The notes under the pieces: generated by a model
Seen by the model: the letters and a program-made list of their open reading frames with translations, nothing else
Told to the model about the DNA's origin: nothing
Databases searched by the model: none
Source: Rhodococcus wratislaviensis
GTDB taxonomy: Bacteria; Actinomycetota; Actinomycetes; Mycobacteriales; Mycobacteriaceae
Direction: 5' to 3'
DNA: 64,000 nt
Assembly (NCBI RefSeq): GCF_900455735.1
Contig: NZ_UAUI01000022.1
Span: 434,001 to 498,000 of the forward strand
Made by a program: the position numbers and the translations under genes
Shown here: positions 4,252-51,080 of the stretch, piece after piece
How positions within the stretch are numbered: the stretch's first letter is position 1
How the letters are laid out: each line of letters opens with the position of its first letter

Positions 4252-5655
4252 TCACCAGGGGATCTGCCCGAGGACCACACCGATCACCAGCATCGACAGC
4301 GACACCAGTGCGGCGCGCCACAGCACCTTCTTGTGATGGTCGGCCAGCGGGACACCCGCCAGGGTCACGAGCAGGAGGATGGCCGGGACGAGGGGGCTCT
4401 GCATGTGGAACGTCTGGCCGGTGATGGATGCGCGGGCCATCTCGACCGGCTCGATGCCGTACGTGGCCGCCGTCTCGGCGAGCACGGGCATGATGCCGAA
4501 GTAGAAGGCGTCGTTGCTCATGAAGAACGTGAACGGCAGGCTCAGGATGCCCGTGATGACGGCCAGGTGCGGTCCGAGCGACGCCGGGATGATCTCGAGC
4601 AGCCACTGCGCCATGGCCTCGACCATTCCGGTGCCCTGGAACACGCCGGTGAGCACGGCCGCGGCGAACACCATCGCGACCACGGAGACGATGCTCGACG
4701 AGTGGCGGGTGATCGCTTCCTGCTGTTCCTTGACCCGCGGGAAGTTCACCGTCAGCGCGATCGATGCGGCCACCATGAACAGGACCGGGATCGGCAGCAC
4801 GTCCATCACGAGCACGACGAGGAGCGCCACGGTCACGAGCGCGTTGAACCACAGCAGCTTCGGCCGCAGCGTGGGCCGCTCGGGATCGAGACCGTCGACG
4901 AAGCCCTGGCCGTCGTCCGATCCGGCGTCGCCGGAGCCGCCCCCGGTTCGGGGTGTGTCACCGTTGCCCCCGGATCCGGTCGCGGACCGGCGGAGGCCGG
5001 AGCCTGCGGAGACGAGGAGGCGTTCGTCGGTGAGTTCGAGCGTGCCGATGCGGCGGCGTTCGCTGTAGCCCAGCTGCACGGCGAACAGCAGCACGACGAG
5101 CAGTCCGACCACCAGCGACGGGATCATCGGGACGAACACGTCCGACGGCGAGATTCCCAGCGCCGCGGCGGCCCGGACCGTCGGCCCACCCCAGGGGACG
5201 ATGTTCATCGCGCCGTTCGCCAAGCCGGCGACCACCGTGAGGACGACGGGGCTGACCTTCAACTTCATGTACAGCGGCAGCAGTGCGGACGTCACGATGA
5301 TGAATGTCGTGGATCCGTCGCCGTCCAGCGACACCACCATCGCGAGCACCGCGGTGCCGACGACGAGCCGCATGGGGTCGTTGCGGACGAGCCGGAGGAT
5401 GAGTTTCACCAGCGGGTCGAACAGGCCGACGTCGATCATGATTCCGAAGAAGATGATCGCGAAGAACAGCAACGCGGCTGTCGGTGCCAGCGCCTTGATC
5501 CCGTCGGTGATCATGTCGCCGATGCCGAGGCCCGCCCCGGCCGCGATCCCGAAGGCGACCGGGACCGCGATCAACCCGACCACGGGAGTGGCCCGTTTGG
5601 ACATGATCAAGAACATGAACACGGCCACCATCAGAAAGCCGAGTGCTACCAGCAT
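4252..5655 (-). CDS. CitMHS family citrate/tricarboxylate transporter
   Basis: 467 residues with about 12 hydrophobic helices and a central polar loop (around residues 205-255). Conserved stretches include SLDGDGSTTFIIVTSALLP, ANGAMNIVPWGGPT and FFMSNDAFYFG, as in Bacillus CitM/CitH, which import citrate complexed with Mg2+ or Ca2+ by proton symport. ATG 5655 is chosen because GAGGAG sits 5 nt upstream; the GTG at 5661 overlaps that ribosome-binding site. It stands alone, with no adjacent citrate sensor kinase. Confidence 0.9.
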   Translation of the reverse strand: MLVALGFLMVAVFMFLIMSKRATPVVGLIAVPVAFGIAAGAGLGIGDMITDGIKALAPTAALLFFAIIFFGIMIDVGLFDPLVKLILRLVRNDPMRLVVGTAVLAMVVSLDGDGSTTFIIVTSALLPLYMKLKVSPVVLTVVAGLANGAMNIVPWGGPTVRAAAALGISPSDVFVPMIPSLVVGLLVVLLFAVQLGYSERRRIGTLELTDERLLVSAGSGLRRSATGSGGNGDTPRTGGGSGDAGSDDGQGFVDGLDPERPTLRPKLLWFNALVTVALLVVLVMDVLPIPVLFMVAASIALTVNFPRVKEQQEAITRHSSSIVSVVAMVFAAAVLTGVFQGTGMVEAMAQWLLEIIPASLGPHLAVITGILSLPFTFFMSNDAFYFGIMPVLAETAATYGIEPVEMARASITGQTFHMQSPLVPAILLLVTLAGVPLADHHKKVLWRAALVSLSMLVIGVVLGQIPW

Positions 5656-5775
5656 TGCCACTCCTCGTCCGAACTCGCGTCGTGGTGTGATCGCGATAAC
5701 AGCCAGTGTCGGGGGGAGGGACGCTCACAGTCACTGTTGCGTACTTAGAGAAGGTTGTGTTCTTTGTGGTGGCAA

Positions 5776-7071
5776 CTACGGGCGACCCCGGAGATGTTCG
5801 CGCAGAGTCTCTGTCTCATACTCCGCGCGGAACAGCCCCCGCTTCTGCAGGACGGGGATCACCTCGTCGACGAAGTCGGCGAGGCCATTCGGGTAGAGCG
5901 GCGGCATCAGGTTGAAGCCGTCGGCCCCGCCGCTGCGGAACCACACCTCGATCTCGTCGGCGATCGATTCCGGGGTTCCGATCATGGTGCAGTGTCCGCC
6001 GCCTGCCGCCAGCGTGCCCAGCAGCGACCGCACGGTGGGACGGTCCTTCTCGATGATGCGGAGGATCGTGTCGTACCGGCCCTGCGGCCCGGTGAACTCC
6101 GACAGCGGCGGCAGCGCGGGAACGGGTGCGTCCAAGTCCCAGGCACTGCAGTCCTGCTGGACGAACATCGACAACTGCGCCAGCGACTGTTCGACGGGCA
6201 GGAGCGCGTCGAGTTCCGCCTTCTTCCGCCGGGCCTCCCCGCTGGTCGAGCCGACATAGGTCACGAGACCGGGCATCACGACCACCGCGTCGGCGTCGCG
6301 GCCGGCCGTGCGGATGCGCCGCTTCACGTCGGTGTAGTAGCTCTGTGCGGCCGAGAGGTCGTAGGCGACGGCGTAGATGCCCTCGGCGCACCGGGCGGCC
6401 AGGTCGCGGCCCTGATCGGACGCGCCCGCCTGGAACAGCACGGGACGACCCTGCGGTGAGTGCGGCACGTTCAGCGGACCGTCCACGAGGAAGTGCTTTC
6501 CCCGATGCTCGACCGGCTTCACCTTGGCCGGGTCCGCGAAGATGCCCTCCCGGTCGAGCACGAGCGCATCGGGCTCCCACGAATCCCACAGAGCGAGTGC
6601 CACATCGACGAATTCCGCGGCGCGCGAATAGCGCTCGTCGTGGGGAGGCATCTCCTCGAGTCCGTGATTGCGCGCCTCCGCGTCGAACATGGACGTCACC
6701 ACGTTCCAGCCGACGCGGCCGCCGCTGATGTGGTCGAGCGACGCCAGCATCCGGGCGGCGTGGAACGGTGTGTAGAACGTGGTGGACACCGTCGTCACCA
6801 GTCCGACCCGCTCCGTCGCCCGCGCCATCGCGGACAGCGCGGTGAGCGGTTCGAGGAACCACATGCCTCCGGACGCGGGGTCGCGCACCGAATGCCCGTC
6901 CGCGAAGAACACCGCATCGAGGCAGCCCCGCTCCGCGGTCTGCGCCAACTCCTCGTAGTAGGTGATGTCGCAGAGTCGCTCGACCTGGGACGACGGGTGC
7001 CGCCACGCGGCGCCGTGGTGCCCGCAGCTGTAGAGGAACGCGTTGAAGTGCAGTTGCCGGGCGTCGCTCAT
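5776..7071 (-). CDS. LLM-class flavin-dependent monooxygenase (NtaA/SnaA/DszA type)
   Basis: 431 residues of the bacterial luciferase-like fold, subgroup of nitrilotriacetate, pristinamycin and dibenzothiophene-sulfone monooxygenases: FFADGHSV near residue 56, DHISGGRVGWNVVTS, VKPVEHRGKHFLVDGPLNVP, GRPVLFQAGASDQGRDLAARCAEGIY and GVDGFNLMPP-like (GGADGFNLMPP). These enzymes use FMNH2 from a separate reductase and O2 to oxidise C-N or C-S bonds. It is the second gene of an operon with the SDR (1 nt gap), whose leader carries a TPP riboswitch. That suggests a thiamine- or thiazole-related substrate (inference). No flavin reductase gene is adjacent. Confidence 0.88.
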   Translation of the reverse strand: MSDARQLHFNAFLYSCGHHGAAWRHPSSQVERLCDITYYEELAQTAERGCLDAVFFADGHSVRDPASGGMWFLEPLTALSAMARATERVGLVTTVSTTFYTPFHAARMLASLDHISGGRVGWNVVTSMFDAEARNHGLEEMPPHDERYSRAAEFVDVALALWDSWEPDALVLDREGIFADPAKVKPVEHRGKHFLVDGPLNVPHSPQGRPVLFQAGASDQGRDLAARCAEGIYAVAYDLSAAQSYYTDVKRRIRTAGRDADAVVVMPGLVTYVGSTSGEARRKKAELDALLPVEQSLAQLSMFVQQDCSAWDLDAPVPALPPLSEFTGPQGRYDTILRIIEKDRPTVRSLLGTLAAGGGHCTMIGTPESIADEIEVWFRSGGADGFNLMPPLYPNGLADFVDEVIPVLQKRGLFRAEYETETLREHLRGRP

Positions 7072-7072
7072 G

Positions 7073-7837
7073 TCAGTCCTTGACCAGTCCGCCGTCGACG
7101 ACGAGGTTCTGGCCGGTCACCGCACGCGACCACGGGGACGCGAAGAACAGCACCGCGTCGGCGAACTCGTCGGGGGTGGTGACCCGCTGCAGCGGGGTGC
7201 TCGCCGCGATGAGGTCGAACACCTCGTCGGGAGTGGCAGCGCTCGCGTCGGTGGTGCGGAGCAGCCCGCCCGAGACCATGTTGACGGTGATGCCGTCGGG
7301 ACCGAGGTCGGAGGCGAGCGTGCGGGTCAGCGACAGCGCCGCCGCCTTGGCTGCCGTGTAGTCGTGGTACGGGACGACCGGGTTCTGGAACAGGTTGGTG
7401 CCGATGTTCACGATCCGGCCGAACCCGAGCGAACGCATGCCCGGCAGCGCGGCCTGCGTCGTGTGCAGTGTCGCCTTCACGCTGCCACGCAGCTGCGCGT
7501 CGAAGGCATCCCACGTGATGACGTCCGCCTTGTCGCGGGCGTCGCCGTTGAAGGAGAAGTCGGCGAGCGCGTTGTTGATCACCGTGGTCACCGGGGAGCC
7601 GAAGTGCTCCTCCGCCGCGGAGAACAGCGCCGCCACCTGTCCGGCATCGGTGACGTCGCCCCGGAGCGCGACCGCACGGTCCGCGCCCAGGGAGGCCGCG
7701 AGTTCCTCGGCCGCCTCCCGGCTGCTCCGGTAGTTCACGATCACCCGCGCGTCCTGCGCCGCGAACGACCGCACGATGGCGGCGCCGAGGCCCCGTCCAC
7801 CGCCGGTCACCAGGACGATCTGCTTGTCGAGCTGCAT
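7073..7837 (-). CDS. SDR oxidoreductase under TPP riboswitch control
   Basis: 254 residues with the Rossmann motif TGGGRGLG (residues 11-18) and the catalytic YTAAK. The usual NNAG is NNAL, and the Ser of the catalytic triad appears to be Thr (IVNIGTN). The C-terminal GQNLVVDGG is typical of FabG-like 3-oxoacyl reductases. ATG 7837 has GGAAGG upstream; longer in-frame starts would run into the riboswitch and are rejected. It is the first gene of the operon with the LLM monooxygenase. Reductase substrate unknown. Confidence 0.87.
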   Translation of the reverse strand: MQLDKQIVLVTGGGRGLGAAIVRSFAAQDARVIVNYRSSREAAEELAASLGADRAVALRGDVTDAGQVAALFSAAEEHFGSPVTTVINNALADFSFNGDARDKADVITWDAFDAQLRGSVKATLHTTQAALPGMRSLGFGRIVNIGTNLFQNPVVPYHDYTAAKAAALSLTRTLASDLGPDGITVNMVSGGLLRTTDASAATPDEVFDLIAASTPLQRVTTPDEFADAVLFFASPWSRAVTGQNLVVDGGLVKD

Positions 7838-7897
7838 GCTGTCACCTTCCGTTCGGTCGGCGACGAGATATCGGATGAGCGCATACGGCCGTCTCCG

Positions 7898-7984
7898 CGA
7901 CATCCCTTCGCCGGCATTACCCAGTTCAGGTTCGACGGGTGTGTTCTCAGCCGTCCGGCTCGTCGCCGGGCAGCACCCCGTGTC
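7898..7984 (-). promoter_or_regulatory. TPP riboswitch (THI element)
   Basis: Read on the minus strand, the segment contains the conserved TPP aptamer blocks in order: CGGGGTGC, GGCTGAGA, ACCCGTCGAACCTGA, CTGGGTAATGCCGGC and GAAGGGA. This covers the pyrimidine-sensing CUGAGA and the diphosphate-binding GCG-AAGGGA parts. It ends about 60 nt before the SDR start codon, so control of translation initiation or of termination in that leader is likely. The gap holds no obvious U-rich terminator. Confidence 0.93.
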
Positions 7985-8026
7985 ACTGGCCAACAGTGTA
8001 AGCACAATCACCGTTTTTGACTCTTG

Positions 8027-8053
8027 GTTGTGCACAACCTAGTTGTGTGCAAC
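8027..8053. promoter_or_regulatory. putative OhrR operator
   Basis: Two adjacent 12-bp elements, GTTGTGCACAAC (8027-8038, perfect palindrome) and GTTGTGTGCAAC (8042-8053, one step from palindromic), separated by CTA. They lie directly before the ohrR start, between ohrR and the divergent SDR-LLM transcript. Position and symmetry fit OhrR autoregulation; occupancy could also touch the divergent promoter. Confidence 0.7.
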
Positions 8054-8062
8054 TATTCAGTG

Positions 8063-8515
8063 GTGACCGACAACCTCGCCCTCGACCGCCAGGTGTGCTT
8101 CGCGCTGTACTCGGCTTCCCGGGCGATGACGGCGAGATACCGGTCGATGCTCGACTCGCTGGGAGTGACCTACCCGCAGTACCTCGTGCTGCTGGTTCTC
8201 TGGGAACAGGACGGTCGCGGAGTACGTGAGATCTGCGACGCCCTCGACCTCGACACCGGCACGCTGTCGCCACTGCTCAAGCGGCTCGAAACCCTGGGCC
8301 TGGTCGAACGCAGGCGCTCGTCCGCCGACGAGCGCCGCGTCGGGATCCACCTCACCGAGAAGGGTGCGGGCCTCCGCGCCGCCGCGGAGGCCATCCCTGC
8401 GGAACTCGCCCAGTCGACGGGAATGGGCATCGACGAACTCGTCGCCCTCCGAAACACCCTGTCGCGGCTCACCGAATCGCTCCACAGCGTCAACACCCCT
8501 ACAGGAGAGAAGTAA
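8063..8515 (+). CDS. ohrR: OhrR, MarR-family organic peroxide sensor
   Basis: 150 residues from GTG 8063. The N-terminus [16 protein letters not shown] contains the conserved peroxide-reactive Cys (C12 from this start), and the winged-helix follows with [24 protein letters not shown]. Oxidation of that Cys by organic hydroperoxide releases the repressor. A TTG at 8024 in frame would lie inside the operator, so 8063 is preferred. The stop is 2 nt before ohr. Confidence 0.9.
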
Positions 8516-8517
8516 CC

Positions 8518-8940
8518 ATGAAGATCGTCTACACAGCCGAAGCCCTCGCCACCGGAGAAGGACGCAACGGCCACGCCCGCACGTCCGACGGCCGGCTCGA
8601 CCTGAACCTCGCGATCCCCACGGAGATGGGTGGGTCCGGCGACGGCACCAACCCCGAGCAGCTGTTCGCCGCCGGATACGCGGCATGCTTCCACTCCGCA
8701 CTCCAGCTGGTCGGCCGTCAGGCAAAGGCGAACGTCGCCGACTCGGCCGTCGGCGCCCGCGTCGGCATCGGCCCGACGGACGGCGGCGGATTCGGTCTCG
8801 CCGTCACCCTCGAGGTCTCCCTCCCCCACCTGCCCCGCGCCGAGGCGCTCGAACTGACCGAGAAGGCACACCAGGTGTGCCCCTACTCCAACGCCACCCG
8901 CGGCAACATCGACGTCACCCTCGAGGTCACCGAAGACTGA
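8518..8940 (+). CDS. ohr: Ohr organic hydroperoxide reductase
   Basis: 140 residues of the OsmC/Ohr family. The peroxidatic Cys57 is in [11 protein letters not shown] and the resolving Cys121 in [13 protein letters not shown], the diagnostic Ohr spacing. It reduces fatty-acid and other organic hydroperoxides to alcohols using lipoylated proteins in the cytoplasm. Start MKIVYTAEA is 2 nt after the ohrR stop, with GGAGAG upstream, so the two form one autoregulated operon. Confidence 0.95.
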
Positions 8941-32784: not shown

Positions 32785-33741
32785 ATGGCGAGGGATCTGA
32801 CCCAACTCGAACTGCTGCAGGAGTTGTCGCCGGTTGCAGAAGAGAACGTCAACCGCCACATCTCCATGGCCAAGGAATGGCATCCCCACGACTATGTTCC
32901 GTGGGACGAAGGACGTAACTTCGCCGCGATGGGCGGCATCGACTGGGATCCCGAGCAGTCGCAGCTCGACGAGGTCGCCAAGGCCGCGATGATCACGAAC
33001 CTCCTCACCGAGGACAACCTGCCCTCGTACCACCGCGAGATCGCCGAGAACTTCTCGCAGGACGGCGCGTGGGGAACGTGGGTCGGTCGCTGGACCGCCG
33101 AGGAGAACCGTCACGGCATCGTGATGCGCGATTACCTCGTCGTGACCCGCGCCGTCGACCCCGTCCAGCTCGAGCGTTTCCGCATGGAGCACATGACGAA
33201 CGGCTTCGCCTCCCCCGCCGACGTCGACGCCGGCTTCCTCCACTCCGTCGCCTACGTGACGTTCCAAGAACTCGCCACCCGCGTCAGCCACCGCAACACC
33301 GGTAAGGCGTGCAAGGACCCGATCGCCGACAAGATGCTGCAGCGCATCGCCGCCGACGAGAACCTGCACATGATCTTCTACCGCAACATGTGCGGCGCTG
33401 CCCTCGACCTCGCGCCCGATCAGGCGCTCGAGGCCATCAACATGATCGTCCAGAACTTCCAGATGCCGGGCGCCGGCATGCCGAACTTCCGGCGCAACGG
33501 TGTGCTCATGGCCAAGCACGGCATCTACGACCTGCGTCAGCACCTCGAAGAGGTGCTGATGCCGGTCCTGCGCAAGTGGAACATCTTCGAGCGGACCGAT
33601 TTCACCGCCCGCGGCGAGGAGATCCGCGAGAGCCTCGGCAAGTTCCTCGAGAACCTCGAGGGCCAGGCCACCAAGTTCGAGGAGCAGCGCGACCGCATGC
33701 TGGCCCGTGAGGCCAAGAAGCGCGAGCAGAAGGCTTCGTGA
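32785..33741 (+). CDS. desA: acyl-ACP desaturase (DesA family)
   Basis: 318 residues of the ferritin-like diiron desaturase family. Diiron ligands are visible in E106-ENRH110 and D-E192-NLH195, with an additional E in LLTEDNLPSYHREI. The soluble enzyme introduces a double bond into acyl-ACP and, in mycobacteria (DesA1/DesA2), contributes to mycolic acid or oleate synthesis. Gene order with dus and the LCP gene equals Rv0824c-Rv0822c. GGAGG is 10 nt before the ATG, and a strong terminator follows. Confidence 0.93.
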   Translation: MARDLTQLELLQELSPVAEENVNRHISMAKEWHPHDYVPWDEGRNFAAMGGIDWDPEQSQLDEVAKAAMITNLLTEDNLPSYHREIAENFSQDGAWGTWVGRWTAEENRHGIVMRDYLVVTRAVDPVQLERFRMEHMTNGFASPADVDAGFLHSVAYVTFQELATRVSHRNTGKACKDPIADKMLQRIAADENLHMIFYRNMCGAALDLAPDQALEAINMIVQNFQMPGAGMPNFRRNGVLMAKHGIYDLRQHLEEVLMPVLRKWNIFERTDFTARGEEIRESLGKFLENLEGQATKFEEQRDRMLAREAKKREQKAS

Positions 33742-50851: not shown

Positions 50852-50869
50852 GCGCGGAGCGCACAACAG

Positions 50870-50931
50870 CCCCCGAGCCTTCCGGTGCTGGTGCACCGGG
50901 CCCGATCTGGACCAGACCGGGGGCTCGGGGG
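50870..50931 (-). ncRNA. three-stem structured element
   Basis: Outer stem CCCCCGAGCC (50870-50879) with GGCTCGGGGG (50922-50931), enclosing hairpin CCGGTG...CACCGG (50882-50899) and hairpin TCTGG...CCAGA (50906-50916). This gives a three-way junction on either strand. It lies about 65 nt beyond the small ORF at 50996-51034 on the minus strand, so it may be a terminator or attenuator of that transcript. Confidence 0.55.
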
Positions 50932-50995
50932 CCGGGTAGCTGCCTGGGATTCGCTCGCCGCTCGCGCGGTCAGTGAATTCCGTCAGCGGTAGCGG

Positions 50996-51034
50996 CTAGC
51001 TGGCAGCCACCTCACGTGTCCGTCTGTCATTCAA
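50996..51034 (-). CDS. candidate 12-residue mini-ORF with perfect Shine-Dalgarno
   Basis: TTG 51034 to TAG 50996 encodes LNDRRTREVAAS (Met-initiated in vivo). It follows AAGGAGGT (51044-51051), a full anti-SD match at 9-nt spacing, the strongest ribosome site seen in the window. An overlapping ATG at 51030 would give MTDGHVRWLPASRYR (stop at 50983). It begins 47 nt after the cydC stop on the same strand. Leader, remnant or microprotein cannot be decided. Confidence 0.45.
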   Translation of the reverse strand: MNDRRTREVAAS

Positions 51035-51080
51035 TTTCAGACCACCTCCTTCCTCGTGTACTGAAGAAAGTACGCCGCAC

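Follow-up and report, generated by a model that had tools for sequence, protein, structure and literature searches.

A TPP riboswitch upstream of a reductase and flavin monooxygenase gene pair in Rhodococcus wratislaviensis and the proposed role of the pair in vitamin B1 salvage

The window considered here is a stretch of 64,000 nucleotides from Rhodococcus wratislaviensis (assembly GCF_900455735.1, contig NZ_UAUI01000022.1, positions 434,001 to 498,000 of the forward strand). Its minus strand carries a thiamine pyrophosphate (TPP) riboswitch, followed by the genes of a short-chain dehydrogenase/reductase (SDR) and of a luciferase-like flavin monooxygenase (LLM). The riboswitch together with the genes behind it is referred to below as the module, and its elements are, in the direction of transcription:

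7886-7990, minus strand: TPP riboswitch aptamer (RF00059), Rfam full-model match 1-105
7838-7885, minus strand: leader, predicted expression platform, with an anti-Shine-Dalgarno hairpin over AGGTGA at about 7842-7865
7073-7837, minus strand: SDR oxidoreductase, 254 amino acids, PRK08642 subfamily (NF006393)
5776-7071, minus strand: LLM flavin monooxygenase, 431 amino acids, NtaA/DmoA family (TIGR03860)

The match to the Rfam family RF00059 (7990-7886 on the minus strand) reaches 61.5 bits, above the gathering score of 54.3, and has an E value of 1.3e-9 for both strands of the 64-kb window. The first-pass annotation, made from the letters of the DNA, had placed a TPP aptamer at 7898-7984 on the minus strand; this interval falls within the Rfam match, and the covariance search puts it above the family cut-off. 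The riboswitch also stands, as was then described, directly before the SDR and the NtaA-type monooxygenase: 48 bases separate the end of the aptamer match from the ATG of the SDR, and 1 base lies between the SDR stop codon and the ATG of the LLM. A separate covariance model, R1, was built from 18 module riboswitches, namely that of the window and 17 from the 80 wider loci described below. Under this model the window riboswitch, itself part of the training set, scores 85.1 bits. A chance or artefactual origin of the match is ruled out by the Rfam score and by its conservation in the genus and in the wider loci.

The leader is predicted to act as a translational OFF switch. When TPP is scarce, the ribosome-binding site would be exposed and both enzymes would be made, while the binding of TPP is predicted to sequester the Shine-Dalgarno sequence. 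In the ViennaRNA prediction for the window, the Shine-Dalgarno hexamer has a mean unpaired probability of 0.41 in the free leader, and this falls to 0.18 when the aptamer pairs are imposed. The same folding took in 15 of the 18 R1 training leaders (three were left unscored), with start codons and Shine-Dalgarno sites picked by a simple rule and several of them doubtful; forming the aptamer made the hexamer less open in 12 leaders, left it unchanged in 2 and made it slightly more open in 1. Several proteobacterial leaders contain a readable CGCCTC element, whose possible partner is the GAGG ribosome-binding site or, together with the bases preceding the element, the 3' part of the aptamer. In its aptamer sequence and fold and in this predicted direction of control, the system resembles the known RF00059 regulons, from which it differs in placing an SDR and an LLM monooxygenase under control. 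A predicted OFF switch fits a salvage function and argues against the breakdown of thiamine for food. It is also one reason to consider it very unlikely that the operon is switched on by TPP for the breakdown or detoxification of thiamine or of an antimetabolite. The relatives of the LLM do include catabolic enzymes, such as riboflavin lyase, but the pair is linked, as described below, with salvage genes and importers.

The SDR scores 460.9 bits against the NCBIfam model NF006393 (PRK08642), for which the cut-off is 292. The annotation name of this family is 3-oxoacyl-acyl carrier protein reductase; the best FabG equivalog model gives the SDR 156.4 bits against its cut-off of 296, and the operon partners of the SDR relatives are B1 genes. 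We propose that the SDR is an NAD(P)H-dependent aldehyde reductase. The LLM scores 552.9 bits against TIGR03860 (cut-off 279.7) and, judged by this protein, the nearest named relative is Rhodococcus opacus (97%). The solved structures closest to it include YtnJ/MoxC (a match of 327 bits), which we take to be CmoJ, as well as DszA, the nitrilotriacetate and ethylenediaminetetraacetate (EDTA) monooxygenases and riboflavin lyase. Such enzymes cleave C-S and C-N bonds. The LLM shares with them its membership of TIGR03860 and the NxV element (N123 and V125), the part of the dioxygen motif that was mapped here and that is kept in the LLM clade and its paralogues alike; it differs from them in forming a clade of its own and in being under TPP control. 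The NxV element belongs to a dioxygen motif reported for RutA, DszA and CmoJ in PMC8234197, and that paper also describes a related flavin enzyme which converts sulfonates to aldehydes by oxidation.

A survey of orthologous operons had been suggested in the first-pass annotation, and the riboswitch proved to be kept before them. Within the genus, an SDR orthologue (at least 74% identity) occurs in 22 of 28 genomes, and the same 22 genomes carry an LLM orthologue (at least 73%, with the next paralogue at no more than 52%), which adjoins the SDR in each. In 21 of these 22 carriers a TPP riboswitch immediately precedes the pair; the coordinates of riboswitches and genes were matched by eye here and in the genomes with separated genes described below. 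A scan of genome contigs gave 342 wider loci, the best 80 of which were scored, from Rhodococcus, Rhodococcoides, Dietzia, Micrococcales, Nocardiopsis and, in 28 cases, Pseudomonadota. In 68 of the 80, R1 detects an upstream riboswitch on the coding strand, in Actinomycetota as well as Pseudomonadota and each with an E value of at most 3.1e-14, although in one of them (L033) some 1.5 kb separate it from the SDR. The Rfam cut-off is reached upstream of the pair in 17 of 26 loci scanned, a sample that includes doubtful ones, and the riboswitches of L016 and L017 fall below it. The 12 loci in which R1 gives no riboswitch are all 11 of Achromobacter and one of Kocuria (L044), where the contig holds just 489 bases upstream and where the second copy in the genome has a match below the cut-off. 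Two SDR-LLM copies are seen in one genome, that of Kocuria rhizophila TA68 (G254, contigs C39 and C2). The SDR is rare in the class, being found in 7 of 217 genomes drawn evenly, and plasmid records extend the association of riboswitch and genes to Bacillota.

In a quick tree, an LLM clade of 82 rows is separated from 20 paralogues by a branch with an SH-aLRT support of 100, and the proteobacterial LLMs nest among the actinobacterial ones; long-branch warnings concern the paralogues, and two shortened rows (L018 and L024) were left out. The clade has 22 nearly invariant positions whose residues are seldom shared by the 20 paralogues, the two shortened rows being counted as misses in this comparison (82 of 84). 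Without reference to a covariance model, the module riboswitches are 71-85% identical among five proteobacterial examples and 61-74% identical between three actinobacterial examples and these five, while a module riboswitch is 52-63% identical to a different TPP riboswitch from its own locus or genome. These ranges touch, and the comparison is suggestive of a riboswitch that travels with the genes. The one Bacillota example given to both models, at 43.8 bits under R1 and 82.0 bits under the Rfam model, represents a different aptamer type, which makes it probable that TPP control arose on more than one occasion.

The strongest indication that both enzymes meet a single need comes from genomes in which the two genes are apart. 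In four draft genomes, those of three Dietzia (G247, G248 and G249) and of a Nocardiopsis metagenome-assembled genome (G244), the LLM and the SDR lie on separate contigs and each is preceded by a TPP riboswitch; in the Dietzia cases the aptamer match abuts or overlaps the start of the LLM. One further genome (G118) has the riboswitch and the SDR without an LLM orthologue.

Plasmid records reveal three kinds of operon around this SDR family. An SDR search at an E value of 1e-40 gave 31 records, and among the 20 examined, 17 have an above-cut-off TPP riboswitch at the head of the operon; the riboswitch of a Priestia plasmid is below the cut-off at 49.0 bits. Module A, with the order TPP riboswitch-SDR-LLM, occurs in Rhodococcus DMU1, Pseudochrobactrum, Mesobacillus and Exiguobacterium. 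On the Exiguobacterium plasmid (L132, 6803-7877) the LLM is unannotated, and its match is split into two parts that lie in different frames. Module B has the order TPP riboswitch-thiM-thiE-thiD-SDR in 6 of 6 records examined (Neorhizobium, four Rhizobium and Gemmobacter; two further Rhizobium records are left out of this count), the SDR relative standing last. It resembles the thiMED salvage operon of rhizobia, with the SDR relative as a fourth gene behind the same riboswitch, and differs from the arrangement in the window in that there is no LLM match within the stretches examined. The heading of the first-pass annotation, according to which the riboswitch controls the pair instead of thiamine genes, is therefore misleading, since SDR relatives sit inside thiM-thiE-thiD operons.

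Module C consists of the TPP riboswitch, genes of LuxE and LuxC type, an SDR and a variable transporter. The latter is an NMT1/THI5-type ATP-binding cassette (ABC) transporter in Azospirillum and in Priestia, where the riboswitch is the weak one, and an NCS2-type permease in Lactiplantibacillus, with a similar open frame in Niallia; Pantoea has neither. The Niallia plasmid (L141) carries tandem TPP riboswitches, at 1176-1284 and 1363-1472, before the operon. The LuxC- and LuxE-type proteins match PF05893 and PF04443, as do those of the LuxC-LuxE fatty-acid reductase, but their scores fall well short of the NCBIfam cut-offs for true LuxC and LuxE, and their set differs further in being TPP-controlled and in sharing one operon with an SDR. 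The SDR tree sets modules A and B and two solo genes apart from module C (98/99). Y160 and K164 of the SDR are nevertheless found in all 7 module C relatives as in at least 35 of 36 sequences of modules A, B and solo.

The role of the pair could, in principle, be unrelated to B1, for example in fatty-acid or sulfur metabolism, with TPP control acquired incidentally. The family names, 3-oxoacyl-ACP reductase and NtaA/DmoA monooxygenase, would agree with this, but it is highly improbable given that TPP control extends over three phyla, the Bacillota using another type of aptamer, and that it reaches both the separated genes and the SDRs within thiMED operons. A role confined to Rhodococcus or to fatty acids was likewise set aside, as the wider context of other phyla and operons disagrees with it.

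The first-pass annotation had stated that no thi gene or transporter lies near the pair. This holds in the window for the thi genes and fails for transporters, as a CitMHS citrate-type transporter gene (4252-5661, minus strand) follows the LLM. It was rejected as a third member of the module because its cluster occurs in only 5 of the 80 loci. Divergent from the riboswitch are genes of a MarR/OhrR-type regulator (8024-8515, plus strand) and an Ohr peroxiredoxin (8518-8940, plus strand). Elsewhere in the window, on the minus strand, there is a strong match to the actinobacterial small RNA (sRNA) Ms_IGR-5 (50861-51059, 147.8 bits) and a match to ASdes, a family of tuberculosis sRNAs (33103-33170, 80.4 bits).

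For the relatives the statement does not hold, as salvage genes and TPP-controlled transporters are among the neighbours, and in this the loci are like other TPP regulons, with thiM, thiE, thiD and importers in the same operon or next door. Of the 28 proteobacterial loci, 24 contain a sodium:solute symporter gene, and every one of these 24 genes is preceded by a TPP riboswitch of its own; the family PF00474 was confirmed in the two members scanned. ThiV of SAR11, a likely importer of 4-amino-5-hydroxymethyl-2-methylpyrimidine (HMP), is a TPP-controlled protein of the same superfamily according to PMC11452348, and the kinship of the two is at the superfamily level. In Cryobacterium, a gene for an NMT1/THI5-type binding protein is under TPP control, and in Arthrobacter rhombi a divergent YkoE/energy-coupling factor (ECF)-type transporter is. 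In Yaniella, the LLM is directly followed by a second TPP riboswitch with thiD, a major facilitator superfamily (MFS) transporter, thiM and thiE. For the TPP-controlled SDR-LLM pair, salvage genes are thus found only next door, in Yaniella, whereas the thi genes within one operon belong to the SDR relatives.

The source genome has four TPP riboswitches above the Rfam cut-off, including that of the pair. The remaining three can be assigned by their location: one precedes thiC-thiD, one the strand with thiG, divergent from thiE, and one a TenA-like gene accompanied by an ABC transporter of the NMT1/THI5 type. The TenA-family gene is above the cut-off of PF03070 and scores 123.4 bits against the cut-off of 130 for TIGR04306. 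There are 12 LLM-family matches in the genome, two of them unlisted, and the nine other listed genes lie more than 50 kb from all four riboswitches or on contigs free of them.

From these operon partners and neighbours, the module very probably serves the salvage of some moiety of B1. The salvage role put forward in the first-pass annotation is accordingly strongly supported, by the conservation of the riboswitch with the pair beyond Rhodococcus, by its presence at each of the separated genes, and by the neighbouring salvage genes and transporters. The action of the enzymes on thiamine, a thiazole or a pyrimidine, and the cleavage of a C-N or C-S bond by this LLM, are putative. As a more specific reading, to which we assign a probability of about 50%, we infer a TPP-repressed pathway in which the LLM frees a pyrimidine aldehyde and the SDR reduces it to HMP. 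With reduced flavin mononucleotide (FMN) and O2, the LLM would cleave a compound whose thiamine pyrimidine is held through its 5-methylene to an N or S leaving group. Candidate substrates are ring-damaged thiamine, aminomethylpyrimidine derivatives and the base-exchange products of thiaminase, as well as pyrimidinylmethanesulfonate, which is made from thiamine by sulfite. The product would be 4-amino-2-methylpyrimidine-5-carbaldehyde, from which the SDR would form HMP with NAD(P)H, and HMP would then enter thiamine phosphate via ThiD and ThiE. HMP is the likely alcohol because several of the co-controlled transporters resemble pyrimidine or nucleobase types and because ThiD needs HMP. In module C, this aldehyde would be derived from the corresponding carboxylic acid through the LuxE- and LuxC-family proteins and would be reduced to the alcohol by the SDR; in module A, the LLM would take the place of LuxE-LuxC as the aldehyde source. 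Such a pathway would share with the TenA/YlmB/ThiXYZ system the TPP-controlled recovery of the pyrimidine moiety, but the latter is hydrolytic, whereas a flavin monooxygenase and a reductase would act here.

Several observations weigh against this pyrimidine reading or weaken it. The transporter labels are broad: the symporter is below the cut-offs of the NCBIfam sss and panF models, the sulfonate SsuA model gives sub-cut-off matches to the two NMT1-type binding proteins as well, and the module C permease comes closest to a xanthine permease model, again below the cut-off. TPP control is also missing in places. In the genus, one carrier (G015, locus L094), whose SDR and LLM have 87-88% identity, shows no TPP riboswitch at the pair even at an E value of 0.01. 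G127 and G215 have an SDR without an LLM orthologue and no Rfam match before it, R1 giving 45 bits upstream of the SDR in G127, and on two Caballeronia plasmids with a solo SDR no TPP riboswitch was found. At the 11 Achromobacter loci, the pair lacks the riboswitch, and a TPP riboswitch drives a divergent sodium:solute symporter instead. The module C SDRs, 40-49% identical to that of the window (22-27% for two unrelated SDRs), may differ in substrate. The thiMED operons serve both moieties of thiamine, and this keeps the thiazole in consideration. A second SDR, 45% identical, was seen in Achromobacter marplatensis (G266:C44:529098-529844), about 5 kb downstream of a TPP riboswitch on the same strand (G266:C44:535023-535114), perhaps in a module C operon.

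The thiamine genes of the carriers add to these points. Forty carriers were picked from the loci at hand rather than at random, and as 14 of them are Pseudomonadota, the fair comparison for thiC is that of the 26 actinobacterial ones. Among these, 12 have thiC (one more has a fragment) against a class background of 103 in 217; among all carriers, the count is 25 of 40. The carriers are not poorer in thiC than their class, and hence pyrimidine auxotrophy does not explain why the module is carried. A match to the family of TenA, the known pyrimidine-salvage enzyme, is present in 29 of 40 carriers, and whether the module replaces TenA is not clear-cut.

Two other routes of salvage bear on the same evidence. 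In the first, the SDR would reduce a thiazole aldehyde, such as 4-methylthiazole-5-acetaldehyde, to hydroxyethylthiazole, and the LLM would free the aldehyde or the thiazole from a larger compound. The position of thiM as the first gene of the thiM-thiE-thiD-SDR operons and its presence next to the pair in Yaniella speak for such a thiazole branch. We nevertheless hold it to be unlikely, since 37 of 40 carriers retain a match to the ThiG family, so that most can probably make their own thiazole, and the transporters beside the modules look, under their broad labels, more like pyrimidine or nucleobase types. In the second, the LLM would act on thiamine, whether intact or damaged, by opening its thiazolium ring to yield formylaminopyrimidine, which is converted to HMP by a deformylase and TenA, and the SDR would handle the other fragment. 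Enzymes with the NxV element could attack an electrophilic carbon such as C2 of the thiazolium, and the TenA-like gene and NMT1-type transporter behind a TPP riboswitch in the source genome would suit this route. It is a rather improbable one, because 11 of 40 carriers are without a TenA match and because the LuxE-LuxC partners of the related SDRs point to a series of acid, aldehyde and alcohol.

Taken further, the pyrimidine reading would describe a redox branch of B1 salvage, in which the LLM strips the pyrimidine from thiamine as an aldehyde, the reductase makes HMP, LuxE-LuxC feeds the reductase, and the cassette moves between phyla as a unit. The substrates would be damaged, sulfite-cleaved or base-exchanged thiamine and, for LuxE-LuxC, the pyrimidine carboxylic acid. 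This extended picture is tentative, and we rate it somewhat short of an even chance. The riboswitch itself is already known. Its link to the SDR-LLM pair and to the LuxE-LuxC-SDR set did not appear among the matches listed in a search of open-access titles and the starts of abstracts, where no LLM monooxygenase and no SDR of this kind was tied to TPP control, although an earlier mention, for example in a regulon database, is possible.

Many habitats are poor in vitamin B1 and in its pyrimidine, and degraded material makes up a part of the pool. To our knowledge, the known salvage routes start from thiamine, HMP, the thiazole or formyl- and aminomethyl-pyrimidines. The oxygenase and the reductase occur in several phyla, and the reductase family is joined to thiMED operons. 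If the proposed TPP-repressed pathway is true, degraded forms of B1 would become a usable source, and functions would be provided for two gene families whose present names come from distant relatives.

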